Source: Linnemannia hyalina
Lineage: Eukaryota > Mortierellomycota > Mortierellomycetes > Mortierellales > Mortierellaceae
Direction of reading: 5' to 3'
Length of the DNA: 64,000 nucleotides
Assembly: GCA_019671135.1 (NCBI GenBank)
Contig: JAHRHY010000004.1
Span: forward strand, 1,488,001 to 1,552,000
Position 1 is the first letter of the stretch; the number at the start of each line of letters is the position of its first letter. Below the pieces are notes generated by a model, which searched no databases, was not told where the DNA came from, and saw only the letters and a program-made list of their open reading frames with translations. This document shows positions 6,842 through 23,751 of this stretch, in pieces. Both the position numbers and the translations under genes were made by a program.

Positions 6842-9800
6842 TCAAAGATCGAGAGGCAAGAAGGAAATGACATAGACATCATTGCCGGAACTGACAACAG
6901 CGCAGTGCTCGTTGCACTCCATGGTCGTGTAAAATCGATTCCGATGGGCGCTGCTCAGAACAGCTTCGACTGCAGGTCCATGAATTTGCTTGACCCGCTT
7001 GGTCGCTCGTGTGTACACCGAGATCTCGTCTAAACGTGTACAGTGGTTTGGCAAAAACACCCCATACGAGTTGAGGGCAGAGGTCGTTCCATGATCAAGC
7101 GAGCGATAGGTCCTTGGCAGACAGTAGAGACTCGCGAGACGCGGGAATCGTGTGGGTATAATCGATCGCTCCATATCAAACGCTTTCTCCGTCGTGCCAA
7201 CGCGCTGTCGTATCTGCGAGAGGAGGCTATTGGATGTTTTCCAAACCCGGCCCGATGTCGATCCTGAACGTAACGAGTTTGGCTGTGGTGGCTGAAGATG
7301 TCTGTGTGAGATTGAACTGTTGAAGGGTCGGTTTGCCGTTGGGCGACTTCCTGAGCTAGACATGGCGTGGTTAGACCATATTGGCTGGCTTGCAGTGCTC
7401 AGCATCATATTGCTGGCAGAGGAGCCAAATGTAGGCTCCCGCTTTGCTCCTGAGGTGAGATAGTCGAGCTGAAGTTCGTATTCGTAGACTGCATCCCGAG
7501 TCGAGAACATGACCTTGTCGCCGTGAATGGTGGGTGTGAACTGTATCGCTTGAGTTGCATGAGGCAACAGAATGCGTTCAACAATACACGAGCGTGCAAG
7601 GGAATACACCAGTGTCTCGCCGTTGGTACTCGCGCTGACAACATATTTGTGGTCCAGAATGCTGATGTGGATGACCTAAAAAAGAGTGAAAAAAATAGCA
7701 ATATTAACACATGTGTCTGGACGTGTCACCCCTGCTGCTTGGAAATTTGATCCCTGATACTGTCGCTCAACGTGAAAAAAAGACGGTTGAACAACTTACA
7801 TCGCCTTCATGTGCTTGATATGTCCCAACGACCTCCAATCCGGTTCTCGAACTCCAATCAAAGACAGTGACAACGCCGTCGCACTGGCCATATCCGATAT
7901 AACGCTCGTCCATGTAGATAAAGCTGGCAATCTGGGGCATAGCTTCGTCGTCCTGAAATATCATCTCGCCCGTCGTCGTGTCCCAAATACACAGCGCGCT
8001 ACAATTGAAACATCAATGTTAGCAACAAAGAATGCCATTGATAACTATTACGTAATGGTAGGTATGCGAGGATGTTGTGATGATTACTCACCCAAACGAG
8101 GTCCTTGCGCAGACGGCGCGCGCCTTCTCGGACTGGGAGACACAAGTCAGGGATTGTGTGGACCGAAGCACCTGCTTGCACTCCAAGGTTCGCAGGTCCC
8201 AGACGCGAAGGGTCGAGTCAATTGATGCCGTGACGAGTGACCAGATGGACATCTCCAGGCTTGAAACGAGTCCGGTATGACCCTCGAGCACATGGACTGA
8301 TTGTGGGACGGCATCGGCCCAGTTTTGTTTGACACGCAAGCTGTTTCTGTGCAAGTATTGGTAGTAAGCGAGCCATGGGATAGGTTCTTGTCGTCCTTGG
8401 AGATGAGCAGGGGAATAAAGCGAATGCTGTGTGCTCTTGACTCTCCAGATGGCATTATCGGTCGAGATCCTGTAATAAAACTTTCCAAGCTATAGTTTTT
8501 TTTTTTTTTTTTTTTTTTTGGTTCAATTGATTTGAGTAGGAAGAGAGATGGTGTAGGTTTTGGGGGAGCAAGGGTAGGATTACAAAGATAGCCAGAGAGT
8601 GAGAGAAATGAGGGGAGAGGAGGGAGAGCAGGGAAACCTGTGTTACTAAAGAGCGGGAGGTCGGTGCATGCATGTTCTTGCTCACTGTTGGCCACCTGAT
8701 GTGTGCGGTTTGCTTACCTGGGCCACACGGGAGAGGTCCAGTGCGTCGAGATGGCTAGAATGTCGCAGCAAGACAACATCGACAACAACAGTAAAACAGC
8801 AGCGAATGAAAATGTAAAAGGGAGGCGGTAAGCCGGGACGTCCAATAAAGTACGCTGGTCAGTTGATGGGAAACAAACAAGTAAAATGAACTACGCAAGC
8901 CAAGAGAAACATCCACCAGCAACGGGAAACAGAGAGACAAAGCTTGCCATACTAAAAGAGACAAACCCCCTTGAAAAAAAAAACGTACCAAAGGATGTGA
9001 AAAAGGAGCTCCGAGGGAAGGCTGGATAGACGATCCATCCCGGCTGTCGATTGGCTGTTGGAGCTCGCATGCTTGAGGGTAAAGGCACATGACGATGGCT
9101 CGGGCGGATACAATGCTGGAGCCAGAACAAAGTGGGGCTCTGAGGGATAGTGAAGAGTCGGAGCTGGGGCGGATGGTGAGTTGATGAAGACCTTGGTTGC
9201 GTCCGACAAACGGGTAATCTCATCGGAACGAGTCCGAGCGGGGTCCCGAGTTGGATGGCCTTGTCTGGTGGATGCCGATGTTGTTTGGGTGGTCCTGTTG
9301 TTACTGTTGGCGGAGGCGAGAGTATTAGTGTTATAAACATGACTTTTCCAGTTGAGGTCTACTTCGGGTGTAGGTGTGGATGAGACGTCCTCCATCGGAG
9401 TTGTTTCTGCATGTGCTTCTACTTTTGTTTGTTGTTGTTCTTGTTGGTGCTGCTGCTGCTGCTGCTGCTGTTGCTGTTGTGGAAGAGCTCGTTCTGATGA
9501 TGAGCAGATATCCATGTAGACCTCGGTGGTGGCAACGAGTGGTTGCAAGGATGTTGCTGCCAGGATGTTTCCATCATTGCCGATAGCATTATGAGGAGAA
9601 GGAGTGGTTGGTTCACAGGTAGTTGTGGAAGTGGGTGGAATGATTGTAGCCGTAGTTGTGGTTGCAGCAGCAGTCGGAACAGTAGCAGCAGCAGCAGCAG
9701 TGGTTACTGTTGCTGTTGCTGTTGCAATAAGAGGAGACTTTGCAATGGGAGGCGTATGAGACTTGAAGTAGGGACGTGGCTTTTTGAGGTTTGCGATGGT

Positions 9801-9920
9801 GAGGTGGTGGAGGGGCGAGTCCTTGGGAGGGGAGCAAGAAGGCGAGGTGGATGAGGAAGAGGATGAGCCACCGCCAATTCCGCTGTGGACGAATTGATCC
9901 CGCTCAGCCTGGAGTTGCAT
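6842..9920 (-). CDS. F-box/WD40-repeat protein, putative SCF substrate receptor
   Basis: Predicted substrate adaptor of an SCF ubiquitin ligase: the F-box would bind Skp1 and the WD propeller the target. Exons 8989-9920, 8717-8753 (37 nt), 8092-8489, 7800-7998 and 6842-7675 join in phase to 799 residues. Residues 1-290 are low complexity: Ser, Thr and Ala runs and a Gln-rich tract of about ten Gln. The F-box starts at Leu-Pro 301-302 (RLSSLPSELLFHILC) and continues through the microexon (HLDALDLSRVAQLGKFYYR). WD repeats follow (LEGHTGLVSS, DSTLRVWDLRT, GALCIWDTTTGE, GVVTVFDW). The C-terminal about 250 residues are Ser/Arg-rich and end in a weak beta pattern. The start at 9920 is the first Met after an uninterrupted CT-rich leader; a longer N-terminus is possible. 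The ortholog is not recognised. Confidence 0.82.
9447..9475. repeat. Trinucleotide repeat coding for poly-Gln
   Basis: A run of TGC triplets (CAG on the minus strand) with interruptions. It encodes the Gln-rich tract in the N-terminal arm of the F-box/WD40 protein and is probably length-variable between strains. Confidence 0.75.
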
Positions 9921-10554
9921 CGCAGCAGCAGCACCGTCGAGAAGGAACAGGAGAACGAAGAGAAGCTGGTTTGAGAAGGAAGATAAAGAGATAAAAGTAG
10001 GGATAGGGATATGATGGGAAGGGTAAGGATAGGGATAGGATGGAGTGGGAGAGTTTAAGGAGGAGAGATGGGGCGAGGAAGGAAGGAAAGGGAAGGAAAG
10101 GAAGGAAGGAAGGGAAGGAAGAAAGGGGAAGGAAGGGGATGATGGAAGGAAGGAAAGAGAGAAAGAAAAGTCTGTTGTGGGGAGAAGGATTATTATGAAT
10201 GCGAATGTGTGAGAGACAAGGATGCTGTTGTTGTGGGTAATGGGGGAGAAAAGAAGGAAAAGCAGGTGCAGGGTAAAGGGGACGAAGAGAGAGGGAAGAG
10301 TGGTAGAGGGAGGATAGAAAAGAAAGGCACAAGACACACACATAGAGCATATACACACAAGAGGTTCACTTCGCTTATTATTATTTTTTTCTGAGCGCCA
10401 CGGGTGCGCTGATTTCGAGTATTGTTTTTTTCACAAGAAGCACTCCAAGGATGGGCATCATCCCGTCCACACATCCACGCATATCCATACAGTTCAGCAA
10501 CAAACAACGCTTTGCAATTCTATTCATTCAACAACAACCACCCACTGTTGTCCC

Positions 10555-11893: not shown

Positions 11894-12063
11894 TTCACTT
11901 CGTTCAACTCTCAAGCATAAAACCTAGGAACATACCTCTCACCGTCTTCACATATTCAAGGACCCTACCTTCATCCTTCGACAACAAAACAGAGTCAATC
12001 AGGAAAACGCAAAACATCTTACAAGCAACCCAACAACAAGCAGCCCGGCACCCAATTCATACA

Positions 12064-12276
12064 ATGGACTCTACAACGCAACAGCACATCGTTGCCCCAG
12101 AGAACGAGATCCCTGTCGTCAAGATCCTGGCCGTCATGGGTCTTTGCTTCTCTCTGATCGCCGCAATGCTCTACCTCGGCGTCCAGTGGATCATCCGTGT
12201 CGGCAAAGCCGAACATGCCTCCAAACAGCTCCCTCACCAACAGCAACAGCAGAGCATCAAGAAAAAGGAGGATTAA
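12064..12276 (+). CDS. Small single-pass membrane protein, function unknown
   Basis: Uninterrupted 70-residue frame preceded by a CAA-rich leader, the same start context as well-supported genes here. About 18 polar residues are followed by one hydrophobic helix (about 20-44, VVKILAVMGLCFSLIAAMLY and continuing) and a short hydrophilic tail with His/Gln runs (HQQQQQ) ending in KKKED. The terminal Lys cluster is not at the -3/-4 positions of a classical KKXX signal. I do not recognise a family. The 3' end converges on the histidine kinase gene. It could be an organelle or ER micro-protein; expression data would settle whether it is real. Confidence 0.5.
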   Translation: MDSTTQQHIVAPENEIPVVKILAVMGLCFSLIAAMLYLGVQWIIRVGKAEHASKQLPHQQQQQSIKKKED

Positions 12277-12867: not shown

Positions 12868-15800
12868 TTACAACAAGTGGTTCTTGAAGGAGTGCATGCG
12901 ACCCATGCGGGCAATAGGGTTGTTCTTATTGGTCACAACACTGACCATATTCAGTCCACCACCTCCGCCTCCGCGGCAACCCAAAGCTTCATCCTCGCTG
13001 TCGTCGCTCATCACATGAGCCCCTCCTGGCCCCACTCCGCCTGGTCCTCGCTGATGAGACTTCTTGCGCCGGCGAGAATGCTTGCTCGATCGAGACGATC
13101 CCATCCGACAGGGACCTCCTCGAGACCCGGTCGACCTCATGCGGATCGGCATATCGTACTCTTCCTCGCCATCGCCATCACCGTCGTGGTCGTTATTGTC
13201 CGTCGTATCGTCCTGTGCAATCCCTTCATCTTCTTCCTCCTCCTCTTCTTCTTCCTCGTCGTCTTCTTCCTCATCCTTCAAATGGCGGACAGAGCCAGTA
13301 GTACCATCAGATGACGGCAAGGGAACAGACGGAGAATCCGGGCCGTCTCCACTCGCACCAGAACCACCAGCACCTTTGAGAACAGCCATGCTCCGACGCT
13401 GCAAGAGCTCCCGCTTCTTCTTCTGAAGCACCTTGCGCTCATGACTCTCCTTCTTCTCCTGCTCAAGATCCGCCCGGGCATCCAACCAGTTCTCGAGGAT
13501 CGAGCACAGCTCCTCCTTCTTGATCGGCTTGGATAGATAGGCGTTCATTCCGCTGGCAAGACACTTCTCACGATCGCCTGGCATCACACAGGCTGTCATT
13601 GCGACAATAAACGGCTCCGTGCCCGTGATGCCATCCACAGACTTGCGGATCTCCTCCGTCGCCTTCAGACCATCCTTGACGGGCATCCAGACATCCATAA
13701 AGATCAGATCGTATTGCTTCGCCTCCACATCTGATCCCGAGCCCGATCCAGATCCATCAACAACATCACCGGTACCTCCAGAAGCGTCAGGCAAAGACGA
13801 CTCTTTCTTGGCCTTGGCTACAGCCTCGGCGCGAGCAGAGCACTTGTCGATGGCTTCCTGACCATTGTTGGCCAGGTCAGGCGTGATACCCATCCGTCCA
13901 AGCATCCTCGAGATCACCTTCTGGTTCACAGGGTTGTCGTCCACCAGCAGACACTCGAGCGTCTCGAGCTGACGCTTTCGCTCGTGCTCTCGGTTGTTCA
14001 GATCCGCGGCCGGTTGTGGAGCCATCGGCCAGGATCCAGTCATCAAACCATGGAACATCCTGAACAGCTTGGCCTGTTTGACGGGCTTACTGAGGTACCC
14101 AACCGAGGGGTCAGCGCCCCAAGCTCCAAAGTCCTGTCCACTGCCACCAGAGTTGGGCGGCGAGATGGGAGACGGAAGACTGCCCGAGAAACTGTTGGAC
14201 CGGTCATGAGGAGTGCCTCTGGGTGGAACCGCCAACATGTTACTGTTGATAATGTTGAGGTTGCAGGTCCCAGTCGACGCGTAGGGGCGAGACTGAAGGA
14301 CCTCCTTGTCCTTGACGGCCGACGAATGAGAGTGCGTACTCTTGCTGTCCGTCAGACTCTCTAGACTGCTTTGGCCACGGATGGATCGGGTATGGGTTTC
14401 TGAGGCACTGCCTGCAGAGTCAACAGCTTCAGGCGCCAATGGAACAGCAACACCGCTGGCTCCGCCAGGGAAGGCGGGCTGGGCGTGGCGGTGGTACGAG
14501 ATAAGGACACAGGGAACAGGACTCGTCCTCTTCTGGCGGATCACTTCACCGCTTTCGGGTTCAAGGTAGTCCTCGTTGGGGATCATGCGGACTTGGTGGA
14601 GGACGGCCAGGCCTGGATGGATCCTGGACTGGGGCTTGTCGACATCAATCATGATCACATCGACTTGGTTAGGGTTCTGCTGGAGGTAATCAAGACCCTT
14701 AGGGACACTCAGGACCAACACTCGTTGGAAACCCCAGGTCGACGACTGGTACCGCCAGGATGTTCTGCTGACCCGGCGGTCATCCAGGATTAGCAGGGTC
14801 TTTTCCTTGAAGAACTCCAAGTTTAGCTGCTGAGCGACCGTGGGGCTGGCCTTGGGCGACTCGAGAAGAGTCGTGAAGTAGAATGTCGAACCGACACCTT
14901 CCTCTGACTCTGCCCACATCTCACCATCCATGACCTCGACCAGCTTCTTGGAGATGGCGAGACCCAATCCAGTACCACCAAAGTTGCGGGTGACAGACTC
15001 GTCGGCCTGGGAGAAGCTCTTAAACAGTCGGTCCATGCGCTCAGCGGGGATACCACATCCTTGATCGGCCACTGACCAAAGGAGATCCACATGAGTCTCG
15101 TTTTGAGCGCGAGCCTTGGCCTCTTGCGCTAACGAGCCCAGGGTTTGCATCTGGTTCTTGCTTCCGGGTCTCGACGTCGTGGCGCGGCTGTGGATCCGGT
15201 CCAGGTCAGACTCGGTCGAGCCTTGGTCGCTATGGAGCAAGAGGCCAGAGGACTCTTTGACATTCTCCTCCAAGTTGTCCTCTTCATAGATCCGAGCTCC
15301 GGTTCCAAAGGCCAGCTTAGGTTTCGGCTCTAGTTTTACGACAATGTTGCCCTTCTCCGTAAACTTGATGGCGTTACTCAAGAGGTTGAGAAGGACCTGC
15401 CGGATCCGGACCAAGTCTCCGAGGGCTTGCATGGGGGTATCGGGGTGAACCACAAATGCCAGGCCGAGGCCCTTGGTGCCAGATTGCATCGAGACCAGGT
15501 TACAGACAGATTCCAGGAGCCAGGGCAGGTCTAGAAGCTCAGGGGCGAGCTTGAGCTTACCCGATTCGATCTTGCTGTAGTCCAGAATGTCGTCAATGAC
15601 AGCCATCAATTGGTTTCCGCTCGACTCGATCGTCTCGGCGCAATCCATCAGATCTGGCGAAAGGTCCGACTCTAGCATGATACGCGACATACCAATGACC
15701 GCGTTCATGGGCGTTCTATTGTCATATGGGGTGGAAGAAAAGATGCATAGCTGTCAATGACCCATAGCATACTGCCAATGGACACATCAAAAAGGATTAA

Positions 15801-18800
15801 ATTCAGAGCGACAAGTTTTTCTTTACCTGATCTCGTGGGACATGTTGGCCAAAAAGTTGGACTTTGCGCGGGCGGCTTCCTCGGCGTGGTTCTTGGCTTG
15901 GTTAAGATCGATCAAGAGGGCCTCGGTGCGAAGACGCTCCTCCTCTAACTCAGCCGTGCGGGTTTGCAAGTGCATCGTTCGCGTCCTAACCAACTCTTCC
16001 ATATCGTTCGCATACTTCTCTAGCAACGCCGCCATGCCGCCAATCATGTCACCATCGGGGCTAATCAATCGCAGACGGTGAATGATGGTCGCAAAGGATG
16101 GTCGCAGGCACGGGTCAGGCTGCAAACAATTACGAATCAAATGGTTGACGGCTCCAATGCTCTCATCCGAGGCATCGTCAAGCAAGAAATCAGGCCGCAA
16201 GTTCTCGTTCTTGATCTGATCCAGCAGTATCGAAGGTCCTTCAACCGGGTCCAAAAGCGCCAGCTGGCGCACATAGGGTGTCTTGCGCGTCATGATCTCG
16301 TTGAAGATGATACCAGCACTGAACACATCACCACCCTTACTGGCAGTCTTGTGGAAGACAGAGCCACGGTGGATCATGTTCTCGGGGGCAACCCATCGAC
16401 CATCCTGAATTTCTCGAAGCGTCCTGGCGACACGGTACTCTTCCATCTCCGTGGGGTCCTCCGGCAGGTTGTTGGTGTGGAAGGGAAGTGAGTGGGCTGA
16501 TCCGTTACCGAAAAGACTCTCACCACTAATACGCAACGAGTTCCTATGAACAGTACCGCCTTGGCTCAGCTCGCTCGATCCTGTGCTTATGCGACCTACT
16601 CGTCCATATCCTGGCTGTTGAGTCGCCGTCAGCTCCCTCAATCCATATCCTCCGACCTTGACCTCCCAGCGACTGGTGATAAGACAGTTGGCCGATTTCA
16701 AATCACCGTGGAACTGGATCTTGGACTGGTGCAGAAACTCCATCGCGCGGGAAATGTCGCTCATGAACGACAGCTTGAAGAGCCAGTTGAAGTTGAGGTC
16801 CGGGTTCGCCAGAACTTCCGTCAAGGTGCCCTTGGAACAGTGCTCGGTCACCACACAAACATCTGGTGGCTGAAGACACACACCAACCAGCTCCACCAGC
16901 TTGGGATGTCGCAACTCCATCACGTCCATAATTTCGATCCGGAGTTTGCGCGTCAGGTGCACCTTGGCTCCACCAATACGCCGGACAAAGACAGGCAGGT
17001 TGCGGTAGACGCCAATCGCCTTTCCAGTACCATCCATTGGCTCAATTCCCGAGTTGCCTCCGACGAATGTTGAGTGGCTCCGTTGAAACATCCCGGTGGG
17101 TCGACCGCTCGCTCTACGACCTCCATCTCCGCCTCCGCCACCTTCTATATCTGATCTGTAGGACATATGTTTGTGCTCGATCATCGATCCAGAGTCCTGA
17201 GAGCCAAGCCCGCTGTCGGAATCATGATAAAGCCCCATGATTCTCTTGTAGTCCAGCATCCATGAGTCGTCTGCAAGTCGGGAGCGTTTACGGCGATTGC
17301 GGAGGGCATGGACCGCCAGCGTGCCGACGATCGCCGCGAACAGGAACAGGCCCAGAGGCAGGAAAATGGCCAGGGTAATGTTGTTGTTCTTTTGTTTCTT
17401 GTAGAAGTATTCCTGGCAGGATCGCGTCGTCTGACCAAAGTCCTCGCAGCTCATGCAGCTACTGGACCCTGTTACGTTGGTGAAGGTGCCGAGTGGACAT
17501 GCGGTGCAATTGAGACTGTTGTACATGTCACTGTAATAGTCGGTCGGACAGGGCTGACAGTAAGGGTTGCCGACATGGTATCCTTCCTCAGTCTGACAAT
17601 AGAGCGTGGTCCGGTTGCGATCCTTGTTGAAGAATTGACCCTTATCGCAGACGTAGTCAATCATCGTGGGTCCAGTGGCGATGAAATTCCAGGTCTTGTC
17701 CTGAAGAACGGTCGAAAACGCGAGCTCGACAACGGACATGAATCCATTGAGATAGGATTGTTGAGACCAGACCTTCCAGACTTTTCCTGCGACATAATCC
17801 TCCAAAGCCGTCGATGACCGTCCTGTGGTGGTGACCAGAACCTTGTCACTCACATCTCCCTTCGAGACCAGGTACTTGATGTTCTCGAAAAGCATTGTCG
17901 ACGTGGTGTGGATGCTGTCGTACTTGTATCCAGCTCCAACCTCGGTGACCTTTCTCGATGCGCCAGAGAGATCACCAGGAAGGAGTCGAACGCAGTAGGT
18001 GTCGAAGGGTGGGAGGAAGGAGGATCCATAGAGCCCTGTTATCCTGTCATAAAGACCCCGACACATCAGCATCTGTTGCTCGGGCTCATCGTTCTGGACA
18101 ATGCAAATCGGCTGGGCTTTCCCACCGGCTAGAATGGCGTTCGCGTATTCTAGGCCAGCCTCGTATCCGTTCTCGCCGACCCAGGATAAACTCTGATGAG
18201 GAGACCAATTATATGTCGATCCGATGCCGACAATTGGTAAAGGGAGCACTTGTTCCAGCGTATGGTTCCAGGGAGGTTGAACACTGCATTGGTTCGCCAG
18301 GGTAGGCTTCAAGTCGTCACACAGTCCCTGCAGAGTCTTGTTGGCGCGCAAATTACGTTCAGGGACCTGCTTGATTGTCTGGTTGAGAGCATATTGGATG
18401 TAGGTATCGCGGGAGTTGCTCATGAGCAGTCCTTGCGTGTTCGTGTCGTTCAGCGCCAAGTCGATGCTATACTCGACCACGTCCTGTCGGATGGGTTGGT
18501 CGTATCGATATTCTGTCATCGTCCAGTTGAGAAGGCGTGCCGCGTCGCGTGCGCCTGTCGACAAGGCATCCCAATGCTCATTGATTGGCGAGCTATTATC
18601 AGAGTAACGAAAAGGCATTATTGAGGTTAACATCAAGAGTCAAAAGCGCGTGTTGGTAATTTCAACAAAGACATTGCAGCGTGCGATTGTGCTACTTGCC
18701 TTCCGGTAATCACGCTGAAACCCTTCGAGTAATCCAAAAAGTTGCCTAGGGTCCACTCTTCTTGCGCCAGCATGTCTTTAGCATTGGAAGGCGTCACCAG

Positions 18801-20562
18801 CTTGGGACCGGTGATGATCTTGTCCTGGCTAATCGTCTCGCCCACACTCAGCTATACCAATAATGTTGAGCGTGAGGTTAGGTATACCATTTCTTAACGT
18901 GAGCGCAAGTAGGTGCTTTCATTAACTCATTAGCACATATCGTTTCTTTACCTGGATATAAATCAGCATGAAAGCCATGATGGTCTGAATATACATCAAA
19001 CTTGAGACAGAGTAATGCAGGTTTCCCTTGTCCATACTTTTCATCATGTATCGGTTAAAGTCAAACGTGGCAATCTTGAAAGACCGAGTGCCATTGAGGC
19101 TTGTGACCAACGCTTCGTTGAGCTCCATGAAGGTCGTCGCGGTTAGGAATACAATACCGGTGACAGAACGGCGATTGCGGATGTTGTCGGGTACTGACTG
19201 GGCATAGGCAGGACCGGTGCCGTTTCGATTTCCCTTGTCAAGGTAGATGGTGTGCTCTGTCACGTTGGATGAGGCACCGGTGTCAGCCTGAAGAAAGGCG
19301 CTTAGAACACCGTTGCAACGCTCAAGCAAGGCTGGGATGCGGTTGACGCCGTTGATGCAAACAAAGTCCTTGACACCTGTGTGCAAAGAAATGACAGTGA
19401 GGATGAAAAGCGAGGATAAGTAACGAGATCAACGGATGAAGTTCGGGGTCCAATATGAGTTTAGGATCATGCAATATGCTAATGTAATGATATACTTGCC
19501 ATCGTCAACCATCTCTTGGCCGATAAGTCGCCCCGCTTCATACTAGTAAAGGAAGAGGAAGACATAATGATGTGGATTTTAGAGAAGCTCTTTCAATGCG
19601 TGTCAACGAGTGGTTTTCAGTTGCGGCGTTCATGCTCAAGCTGCTGATGCTGTAGCTTACATCGTCTGACATGATGGCGGGAATGCCAAGTTCTTTGGCT
19701 GCCTGCAGCCCGGTATAAATGGCAATGACGGGAATATTCTTTTCACGGGCTGCACGGATAGGTTCCCTCAGGATATCTGGATCTGGGATCGAGACAACAA
19801 GGGCATCGACCGGGTATTGGATCGCATTGTAGATAGCCGCACTCATCCGATTGGCGTCATACTCCATTCCTGACATATCGTCTGTGAGGGACATAGGCAC
19901 AGTCAGCTTTGCGTCAAGCTTTGGGTTTTCTCCCGTCAAAGCCAAGGCTATAACAATAGATCATAAAGAAAGTACATCAACGTGAATATCAAGGGTATCA
20001 ATGGAGTAGGGGATGTCCGGGTCGTAACGGCATCAAGGGCAAGCTGGATTCATAGTCCAATTGGCAGGGGCTGGTTACCATGGGTGATAAGCGATACACG
20101 AGGAGTGTGGACGGCATTTATGCAATTGGGGGATGATGAGGGATAGTCCTTGAAGGTAGTGATGCCCTGGTGGGTGGTTGGTGGGTTGAAAGGAGTGGGT
20201 TGTGCTAGGATGGATGGAGTGGGGATGACGATTTCTGTCGAGGTGATAGGAGGCGCGATAGCAGTTACTGTCGCCTGTGCATCGACAATGAAGGTCGGAC
20301 CAAAGCATGATAGATTGAAGATAGTGAGGATGAGGGCGAGGAACAGAAATTGGGAGGTGAAGGAGGGTTGATGTTGTCGAAGAGAACGGGTGGAGGGGAG
20401 GGAGGAGGACAATGGACGATAAGAGGCGGTAGGGGAGGTTGCAGTGGCAGTCGGGTGGAAGAGGTCCTCCTCGTCCCTGAAGTCGGTGGTGGCAGTCGGG
20501 GGGATGATGACGGTGACCCTGGGGGACAAGGAAGGTGCCGCTGCAGCGCAAGAGCGCCTCAT
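12868..20562 (-). CDS. Transmembrane hybrid histidine kinase with tandem periplasmic-binding domains and receptor-cyclase-like kinase homology domain
   Basis: Predicted membrane receptor signalling by His-Asp phosphorelay. Exons 20079-20562, 19661-19947, 19500-19542, 18952-19376, 18700-18851, 15827-18592 and 12868-15715 give 2334 residues; introns 3 and 5 use GC donors. Order: cytosolic Ser-rich arm and hydrophobic signal/anchor (about 85-115); two tandem sugar/autoinducer-type periplasmic-binding domains (about 155-455 and 460-790), each ending in a TGP motif; Cys-rich Ephrin/GCC2-like module (796-859); transmembrane helix (868-892); kinase-homology domain (979-1309) with HGDLKSAN and GYG where active kinases have HRD and DFG; coiled signalling helix (1315-1374); HisKA with phospho-His1383 (NMSHEIRTP); HATPase with N-box (1495-1504) and GTGLGLAIS; receiver 1 (1691-1948, long insert); receiver 2 with Asp2060 and Lys2115; acidic Ser-rich tail. 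The ligand is unknown. Confidence 0.9.
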
Positions 20563-21991: not shown

Positions 21992-23751
21992 CTAAACCAT
22001 CTCCACCAGTTCATCAACACGCGATTGCCGCACCTCCGTCGGACCAAACCAGCGCTTTGACATCGGAGACCGCGAAGACGACGACGACGACGACGACAAG
22101 GGTAATCCTCCTCCTGCTGCATGTGCGGCTACCGATGTGTCATTGAGCGACAACGGCGATGTTGACAACAACGACACTGGCAATTCAAATTCAGAATCAT
22201 CTCGATCTCCTATGTCACTCCTCATCTTGAACTGAATGCCATCCCCAAGCATTGGTTGAGGCCACAACCACAGCAAAGGATTCTGGCCAAGGATCTCTTG
22301 AAAGTTTGTCAACACACCCAGATGGTAGGGGCACTTAACCTGTTTTTAGTGATTTAAGGAATGAGGTGTTAAATGATGAAATCAAATTAAAAAAAAGCAA
22401 CCAATTCTCTTTACAAAAAAAAAAAAAAGGTGAAATAAAGCCCCAGACAGGACTAACCTCATGAATCTTGCCTCGGCGGATGATGGTCAAAACTCGGTCC
22501 TTCTCCCAACTCTCAATGGTGGTGGTATTGCAGGAGATGCACCAAAAATGGTATGTGGTCAAAACACTTATCCCAAACAAGACAGAGCCGTCCAAGCACA
22601 GGTTCACCACTATCATGATCATCTGTTCCTGAGTTGGCGCATTCTGCAGATTCTATAAGCACATGACAAGTATGGCACATTACATTGGATTCAAATAGTA
22701 AGCAGCAAGAGAGGAGGGAGGGGACAATGTGCCTGCATGCGCGCATCTTGCAGCGTGTACAACCTATAGCAACTGTGCAAAATTCACAACTTACGAGTCC
22801 GAGCTTTTCATTCTCGTAGGCCTCAATGCACCGGAGGATGAGTAGGACTGCACAGTAGAAGGTCGAGATGGTTGTCCAGGTAATGAAGCGTACAAAGTGG
22901 GCATAGTTGTAGAAACCAATGCAGTTCCGGACCCATGGACAATGATGGTCCATCTTGAGGACGCATTTTTTGCATGTTCGACAGTGGTGTGTCCGAGGTG
23001 GTTTGTAAGCGTCGCAGGTGCGGCAGTAGCGAGGAGTGTGCGTTGTGGTTTTGTACTCCATGCTAGCTCCGTCAATTGGGGGGCACTATGAAATAGTTAT
23101 GCACAATGGTGAGCATCATTAATAAACGCAGGCATCGGAGACCATTCCTGAGATAAACGAGGCGGCGAGCCAAGAGAGGACGGGCACAAAGTGGCGACGA
23201 CGACGTTGGATGAGAGGAGGGAAAGGTGTGTGCAACCAAGCAAAGGCCATCCTCCAACCGTCTTTCTCTCCCTCTCTTTCGATTTTTCATTGTTTCGGTG
23301 TAGAATCCAACGAACCACAGAGTCCGATAGGGCATCGTTGGATGACACTTACCCAGTCAAGCGGAGGTGATCCCGGGTTGGTCGTCATGGTCAGATAGTA
23401 ATTCCAACACAGCATGACGAGTGAGCAGTTGAACGGAACCAGGTACAACAGCGCCCGTACATTCAAATTGGCCCACATCACCGACAGATATCCAAACGTC
23501 GGTCCATTGCTGCTCTCGCCAATACTACCATCCTCGACTCCTCCTAGCAGCTGCATCCCTAGACCGTTCTCAAGCGGATCCAGTGCTTCGACAGGATTCA
23601 TTGGCACAAAGGCGGTGTGGCGTGAGGCGGAGGAGGTTGTCCAGGAACCAAAGAGCCATGGCCAGAAGACAAAGACCTGGGATGAGATGGCGATGAAGGA
23701 GAAGAGGGTCCAGGCCAGGAGGGCAATCCATTTGTCGTTGCCGCCGCCCAT
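21992..23751 (-). CDS. DHHC protein S-palmitoyltransferase, Pfa4-like
   Basis: Integral membrane acyltransferase that attaches palmitate to Cys of target proteins; Pfa4-type enzymes act at the ER. Exons 23353-23751, 22795-23085, 22458-22652 and 21992-22339 join in phase to 410 residues. Two N-terminal hydrophobic segments are followed by the Cys-rich domain (about 150-200) with RYCRTCDAYKPPRTHHC and the catalytic DHHC at 179-182 (MDHHCPWVRNCIGFYNY). Two more membrane segments and the TTxE-type motif (NTTTIESWEKDR) come next. The tail has CPYHLGVLTNFQEILG and PLLWLWPQ, the pattern I associate with Pfa4/ZDHHC6-type enzymes. The C-terminus is acidic and Ser-rich. The start at 23751 (MGGGNDKW) is the only Met before the first helix. 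In yeast, Pfa4 palmitoylates chitin synthase Chs3; that substrate is inferred by family only. Confidence 0.88.

Follow-up and report, generated by a model that had tools for sequence, protein, structure and literature searches.

The receptor guanylyl cyclases of animals (the ANP receptor GC-A, GC-C, Gyc76C and the speract receptor) combine an ectodomain of the periplasmic-binding-protein (PBP) fold with a single membrane helix, a kinase-homology domain (KHD) and, directly behind the KHD, a signalling helix. Fungal hybrid histidine kinases fall into 19 groups, I to XIX, according to the part of PMC8510515 available to us. In the portions available of the 2006 survey by Anantharaman and others (PMC1592074), animal receptor cyclases are named as the only proteins in which the signalling helix follows a kinase-like domain, and every fungal example of the helix then known belongs to the Sln1 type. 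We analyzed a 64,000-nucleotide window of the genome of Linnemannia hyalina, a Mortierella-like soil fungus (GCA_019671135.1, contig JAHRHY010000004.1, positions 1,488,001 to 1,552,000, forward strand), in which a gene on the minus strand encodes a receptor with a cyclase-type KHD and signalling helix joined to a hybrid histidine kinase, an output of the bacterial type. The family to which this gene belongs is an exception to both statements, as they stand in those portions of the survey. Sln1-type membrane histidine kinases resemble the window protein in having a signalling helix before HisKA but lack a KHD (PMC1592074, same portions).

By membership, the window protein is a hybrid histidine kinase and not a receptor cyclase. 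It has in common with fungal hybrid histidine kinases the HisKA-HATPase-receiver output and the presence of HPt genes in the same genome, and it adds to them a PBP ectodomain, a KHD and a cyclase-type helix. With the animal receptor cyclases it shares the single membrane helix, an ectodomain alike in broad outline, a KHD of the same clade and the helix directly behind it; it differs in that its first PBP domain is of the CUT2 sugar type and not ANF_receptor, its helix is one heptad longer, and a histidine kinase with receivers replaces the cyclase. By function, we expect it to operate as membrane cyclases do, though with a histidine kinase as its output. A ligand-gated membrane hybrid histidine kinase, acting through the relay proposed below, is a reading that we consider quite probable from the sequence. 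A preliminary description of the window had given the protein the layout of animal membrane cyclases, with a HisKA-HATPase-receiver module where the cyclase should be. The layout held for the inner part, KHD and helix, and failed for the ectodomain, whose first PBP domain is of the bacterial sugar-binding (CUT2-like) kind, and no cyclase domain is present; the module was confirmed by Pfam and by its catalytic residues and, by reading of the sequence, also includes a degenerate receiver. The ectodomain and one transmembrane helix, also described there, were recovered by Pfam and hydropathy, and the ectodomain resolves into two PBP domains and a Cys-rich stretch. The features are as follows.

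12868..20562, minus strand: whole coding region, seven exons, 2334 residues and a stop (splice model; homologs with an equal domain set)
20278..20361, minus strand: signal-like hydrophobic segment, residues 68-95 (hydropathy)
18771..20121, minus strand: first periplasmic-binding domain, residues 148-440, exons 1-5 (Peripla_BP_4; PDB 4ru1)
17599..18770, minus strand: second periplasmic-binding domain, diverged, residues 441-795 (matches the first by profile)
17404..17598, minus strand: Cys-rich juxtamembrane stretch, residues 796-860, with 8 Cys (Ephrin_rec_like)
17299..17385, minus strand: transmembrane helix, residues 867-895, with a basic stretch behind it (hydropathy 2.49)
16051..17016, minus strand: KHD, residues 990-1311, probable pseudokinase by its residues (VFVR, HGDL, GYG), with an insert at 1125-1192
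15910..16038, minus strand: signalling helix, residues 1316-1358 (LLEKYANDMEELVRTRT...EALL) (cyclase-only profile; spacing)
15559..15867, minus strand: HisKA, residues 1373-1438, with His1383 (15835-15837) and intron 6 (15826-15716) inside (Pfam)
14869..15435, minus strand: HATPase_c, residues ~1480-1668, with N box (Asn1500) and G boxes (Pfam)
14038..14805, minus strand: degenerate receiver-like stretch, residues ~1690-1945 (sequence reading only; no Pfam call)
13489..13956, minus strand: intact receiver, residues ~1973-2128 (Asp1978/1979, Asp2060, Thr2093, Lys2115), with a low-complexity insert (Pfam)
12868..13488, minus strand: C-terminal tail, acidic and basic low-complexity sequence, then the stop (sequence)

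The best relatives of the KHD in the PDB were ANP receptor 1 (135 bits, E 2.4e-38) and GC-C (91 bits), with MLK4 next (65 bits), and this ranking was reproduced with exon 6 as the query. Profiles of the fungal and cyclase KHDs matched each other at 100% probability over 298 columns (hhalign, E 1.4e-87). The cyclase KHD profile gave 239 bits with the window protein; among the L. hyalina loci tested, the best frame outside the family scored 98 bits. When the KHD and helix of a Trichoplax cyclase were searched against the whole L. hyalina genome (51.5 Mb in 50 contigs, with the window gene on contig C33), the top two places went to the window gene and its paralog on contig C44.

We then built two trees. 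The first, made without the signalling helix and without the KHD insert, held 26 of 120 fungal KHDs (7 of the 127 family proteins were incomplete and were left out), 22 cyclase KHDs chosen from 117 usable ones (3 of 120 failed on span; 4 of the 22 lack an organism name, and the named ones are animals) and 23 other kinases, namely, 18 from L. hyalina (drawn from 30 loci of 154 matches), P0134 and P0110 from the searches, CTR1, EGFR and DLK. All 26 fungal and 22 cyclase KHDs lay on one side of a branch supported at 100/100, with the other kinases opposite, and the fungal KHDs split off together at 100/99. The program warned that the bootstrap was short of full convergence and that long branches come together among the other kinases. 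In the second tree (14 fungal rows, 40 cyclase rows, 5 of them without organism name, and 4 outgroup rows), the fungal clade adjoined 39 of the 40 cyclase KHDs at 90/79, leaving out only P0232, a fish guanylate cyclase 2G that fell outside the fungal and the other cyclase KHDs in both trees (98/88 and 97/82). A single clade of cyclases could not be rejected by an approximately unbiased (AU) test on the first tree (p 0.394). Judged by these sequences, the fungal KHD stands next to the animal cyclase KHDs, nesting within them being neither shown nor excluded. The claim that the KHD is of the receptor-cyclase kind was thus borne out by the PDB matches, the profiles and both trees; in the panels used, it groups with cyclases and not with the ordinary kinases included there, and an ordinary kinase identity was rejected on the trees and profiles.

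The linker helix behind the KHD, likewise described beforehand as cyclase-like, proved so by profile and by spacing. It reads LLEKYANDMEELVRTRT...EERLRTEALL at residues 1316-1358 of the window protein and LLEKYANHLEDLVEERT...EEKKKTDDLL in the Trichoplax cyclase. We built a profile from the 105 of 117 cyclase helices that the motif picked out, with zero fungal rows, and ran it on reading frames at the three L. hyalina family loci and elsewhere in the genome, including 12 further HisKA loci and 30 kinase loci with ~1.5 kb of flanks on either side. The three family loci scored 26.9 to 38.8 bits, and all other frames tested scored 4.9 bits or less. The same profile scored 126 of the 127 family proteins (median, 24.3 bits), the spliced window protein reaching 23.0 bits.

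In cyclases, the Tyr-to-LL distance was 25 residues in all 104 proteins measured (16 of 120 were unmeasured). In the fungal family, it was 32 in 107 of 109 and 46 in the other 2, P0031 and P0116 (18 of 127 were unmeasured), so that the excess over the cyclases is 7 or 21 residues, in whole heptads. The distance from the Tyr to the phospho-histidine was 59 in 118 of 120 proteins measured (7 of 127 were unmeasured) and 73, two heptads more, in P0031; P0102, at 76, breaks the whole-heptad rule, and its database entry may contain an unspliced intron. By these counts, the fungal helix is typically longer than that of the cyclases by exactly one heptad. Because a multiple of seven arises by chance once in seven times, we treat the heptad difference as suggestive and the constancy of the spacing as the stronger fact. 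The 14 extra helix residues of P0031 and P0116 consist of near-identical heptads (LQARTAD), that is, growth of the helix by whole heptads.

A search with the KHD region returned 110 proteins, 109 of them in the family and one, P0110, a kinase of another kind. Each of the 109 carries the name of a Mortierella-like or Mucor-like genus, with the higher taxon of most genera taken from general taxonomy. A search with exon 6, in which scoring was limited to the 7999 candidates with the most shared words, returned 31 proteins, and the nearest named non-fungal one was the Trichoplax cyclase (E 7.2e-33). The Trichoplax cyclase as query returned 2447 proteins; among the best 120 of the 2447, the named ones were all animal. 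Candidates in these searches need shared exact words, so absence outside the fungi found is weak evidence. L. hyalina itself has three members, on contigs C33 (the window gene), C44 and C3, the latter two with kinase-core identities of 62% and 46% to the window protein; all other histidine-kinase loci of the genome have 25 to 31% core identity over >200 residues, with higher values for shorter pieces. The paralogs, at ~1250971-1255212 of C44 and ~328533-333626 of C3 (loci L023 and L022), have matching PBP, kinase, helix and HisKA segments. The family thus amounts to a large set of membrane sensors in soil and mucoralean fungi.

A few relatives are named in the databases as "RGC/RGC protein kinase," "guanylate cyclase" or "Receptor-type guanylate cyclase gcy-13"; for these family members, names of the "guanylate cyclase" and "RGC protein kinase" kind mislead. 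In the titles and abstract openings among the matches listed, we found no description of cyclase-type KHDs in histidine kinases. A 2017 survey that includes Mortierella elongata mentions, in the part available to us, "unprecedented" membrane hybrid kinases with reference to its Fig. 2 (PMC5285503), and such proteins may be drawn in that figure. The suggestion of an undescribed fungal receptor family stood as to the family, which is real; its proteins are already in databases, and "undescribed" holds only within the literature searched.

The kinship of the relay parts suggests that an old part was reused with different outputs, and the family offers a testable origin for the animal receptor cyclases. 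The preliminary description had raised the idea of an old portable transmission unit, which is compatible with the trees and is not proved by them. On this idea, the KHD and helix would form a cassette that predates the animal/fungal split and fits unrelated PBP caps and either output; we entertain it seriously and hold it tentatively. If it is true, the animal hormone-receptor cyclases are one surviving use of the cassette and the fungal receptors are a natural effector swap in whole-heptad steps. An origin by horizontal transfer, in which a fungal ancestor took the KHD and helix from an animal or stem-animal membrane cyclase and joined them to its own histidine kinase, would fit the restriction of the family to Mortierella-like and Mucor-like fungi in the two fungal-query searches, as far as their proteins are named, and the position of P0232 outside the group in both trees makes nesting inside the animals possible. 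However, the fungal clade lies beside 39 of 40 cyclase KHDs and not beside one animal group, the AU test is compatible with a single cyclase clade, and divergence within the fungal KHD clade is deep, and we therefore regard transfer as rather unlikely.

Several catalytic residues of the KHD are lost. The DFG Asp is absent in 103 of the 120 aligned KHDs (kept in 17), and the HRD Arg is replaced by Gly in 117 of 120; by these residues, the KHD is probably a pseudokinase. The pattern HGxLxSxxC (H, then G or R, at positions 1 and 2; S or T allowed) was present in 108 of 109 relatives, and the cyclase rows shown with the first tree are similar. Fungal histidine kinases with kinase domains are known, the group X (Chk1/Mak) dual kinases having a GAF domain and no membrane ectodomain. 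The window protein might accordingly be read as such a dual kinase, with an active Ser/Thr or Tyr kinase and a chance likeness to cyclases: Pfam labels the region PK_Tyr_Ser-Thr, and the HRD Asp (Asp1094) is retained. We give this reading little credence in view of the lost DFG Asp and HRD Arg, the 100/100 grouping with cyclase KHDs against 18 L. hyalina and 5 other kinases (a panel without group X) and the cyclase-type helix directly behind the KHD. Moreover, the Pfam scan of the window protein found no GAF domain, and the protein, unlike those of group X, has a transmembrane helix and a PBP ectodomain. A hybrid-histidine-kinase locus on contig C48 (L058), with a GAF-like frame by reading and a kinase-like match ~8 kb from its HisKA, looked like a Chk1-type gene and was considered as a group X contrast, then dropped; the cyclase KHD profile gave it 17.7 bits or less, and no cyclase-type KHD was found there.

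The output end carries the phospho-histidine (His1383), the N box (Asn1500) and the G1 and G2 boxes, and the last receiver keeps Asp1978/1979, Asp2060, Thr2093 and Lys2115. Ahead of it, a degenerate receiver-like stretch reads LLILDD...IMIDVDKP...LSKPVKQ (by sequence reading only). Plant cytokinin receptors (AHK4/CRE1) also have a degenerate receiver before the working one, with a CHASE ectodomain and no KHD; the likeness to the window protein in this arrangement is again a reading of the sequence. PF24896 (Receiver_CRE1) is listed for several relatives, and its match in the window protein is weak (E 0.024) and falls on the last receiver. Among the 109 relatives, SHEIRTP is present in all, the helix pattern in 108 and the G2 box pattern in 105; these three, HGxLxSxxC and the strict receiver pattern occur together in 61. 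Two HPt loci are present in the genome. A dead or decoy receptor, expressed without phosphotransfer signalling, would agree with the degenerate receiver-like stretch and with a KHD lacking catalytic residues, but the histidine, the N, G1 and G2 boxes and the last-receiver residues are all present and SHEIRTP is invariant in the relatives, which makes a decoy very improbable.

PF00211 was found neither in the window protein by Pfam nor in the Pfam lists of the 110 homolog-search proteins, and a cyclase pattern matched 0 of 127 family rows versus 98 of 120 cyclase-search rows. A class III cyclase search of the genome gave two PF00211 loci, L024 and L025 (contigs C15 and C8). These read as LRR-PP2C-cyclase genes (LRR and PP2C by frame reading), apparently a duplicated pair, with a layout that we take to be the fungal adenylyl cyclase type; by that search, therefore, no receptor cyclase was found in the genome beside the window family.

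For the ectodomain, Pfam gave Peripla_BP_4 in place of ANF_receptor. The first PBP domain matched sugar-binding proteins of solved structure, the best PDB match being 4ru1, a CUT2 monosaccharide-binding protein (E 4.7e-18) that presumably binds a polyol. The second PBP domain had no PDB match up to E 1 by sequence search. Compared profile to profile, it matched the first at 98.95% probability (E 9.6e-18), so the ectodomain looks like a tandem duplication with the second domain as a diverged copy of the first. Against an ectodomain profile of 85 cyclase-search proteins, the two PBP domains gave hhalign probabilities of 3.7% and 0.9% (KHD control, 0.4%), and on these values no ectodomain kinship with the animal cyclases was found.

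That 12868-20562 encodes a single 2334-residue protein, as described beforehand, was upheld by our splice model, and the motifs quoted are present. The exons (minus strand) are 20562-20079, 19947-19661, 19542-19500, 19376-18952, 18851-18700, 18592-15827 and 15715-12868, and the spliced frame runs from 20562 to 12868 without an internal stop, giving exactly 2334 residues. Four introns are GT-AG; introns 3 (19499-19377) and 5 (18699-18593) are GC-AG with the donor GCAAGT, and by reading of the sequence neighboring GT donors would put the frame wrong. Pfam placed Peripla_BP_4 at residues 190-415, Ephrin_rec_like at 806-846 and HisKA at 1373-1438, with best stretches of 1011-1119 for PK_Tyr_Ser-Thr, 1594-1668 for HATPase_c and 2049-2126 for Response_reg. 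In the hydropathy profile, 867-895 is the sole strong transmembrane helix (2.49), with a signal-like segment at 68-95 (1.99) and a weaker stretch at 394-416 (1.73 or less) within the first PBP domain. Exon 6 alone spans the second PBP domain, the membrane helix, the KHD, the signalling helix and the start of HisKA, and the codon split by intron 6 lies three residues past the phospho-histidine, within HisKA, which makes a split into receptor and kinase genes implausible. A gene break between the KHD and HisKA was rejected, since both sides lie on exon 6, and a break at 15716-15826 would fall within HisKA itself. That two or three adjacent genes were joined in reading is barely credible: the model does come from sequence alone, with six introns of which two have GC donors, but exon 6 by itself runs from the second PBP domain into HisKA, many further fungal proteins in the homolog search have an equal fused domain set on record, and the Tyr-to-histidine spacing is 59 in 118 of 120.

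In the relay that we propose for a ligand-gated hybrid histidine kinase, where we infer the ligand, the dimer, the direction of switching and the downstream genes, the ligand would be a small molecule, probably a sugar or polyol, that binds to the tandem PBP domains outside the cell. Binding would shift the packing of a receptor dimer, as in receptor cyclases, and the movement would pass through the single transmembrane helix to the probably catalytically dead KHD. Given its lost residues, the KHD may be no enzyme but a relay tuned by nucleotide or by phosphorylation. The fixed-length signalling helix would then, by twist or register, set HisKA-HATPase to kinase or phosphatase. By the pattern of known phosphorelays, the last receiver would accept the His1383 phosphate at Asp2060 and hand it to an HPt protein, from which it would reach response regulators.

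Several points weigh against this reading. What is shown, namely, the anatomy, the kinship of the KHD and helix with membrane cyclases, the histidine-kinase and receiver residues, the family spread and the HPt genes, comes from sequence analysis, and the second PBP domain is without a solved relative by sequence. The specificity of the helix profile refers to the L. hyalina frames tested, a panel without reference helices of the bacterial or Sln1 kind. Asp persists at the HRD position in 51 of the 120 KHDs, among them that of the window protein, and the Lys position holds Lys in 56 and Arg in 62, so that the KHD may still bind nucleotide or have residual activity. The cyclase KHD profile also gives 157 bits with P0134 and 124 with P0110, kinases outside the family, and with the Trichoplax query a kinase locus on contig C49 gets 60 bits, ahead of the C3 paralog, whose exons taken separately match at 52 and 50 bits. 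The likeness of the KHD by itself is therefore a matter of degree, and it is the tree and the helix that decide. Finally, the strict receiver pattern was found in 63 of 109 relatives, some of which are partial proteins.

With the same KHD and helix placed on a different enzyme, the features common to both kinds of receptor should be those that transmit the signal. Candidates are the KHD surface, the helix and the whole-heptad spacing, and the comparison bears on the silent KHD of membrane cyclases.

Three further open frames were noted in the window. Near the receptor gene, at 22513-23061 (minus strand), is a frame with what we take to be a DHHC palmitoyltransferase-like motif. Downstream of the receptor gene, a short frame at 12061-12276 (plus strand) encodes a small protein with one hydrophobic stretch. 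The third frame, at 8952-10358 (minus strand), has a long low-complexity part followed, by sequence reading only, by an F-box-like end.

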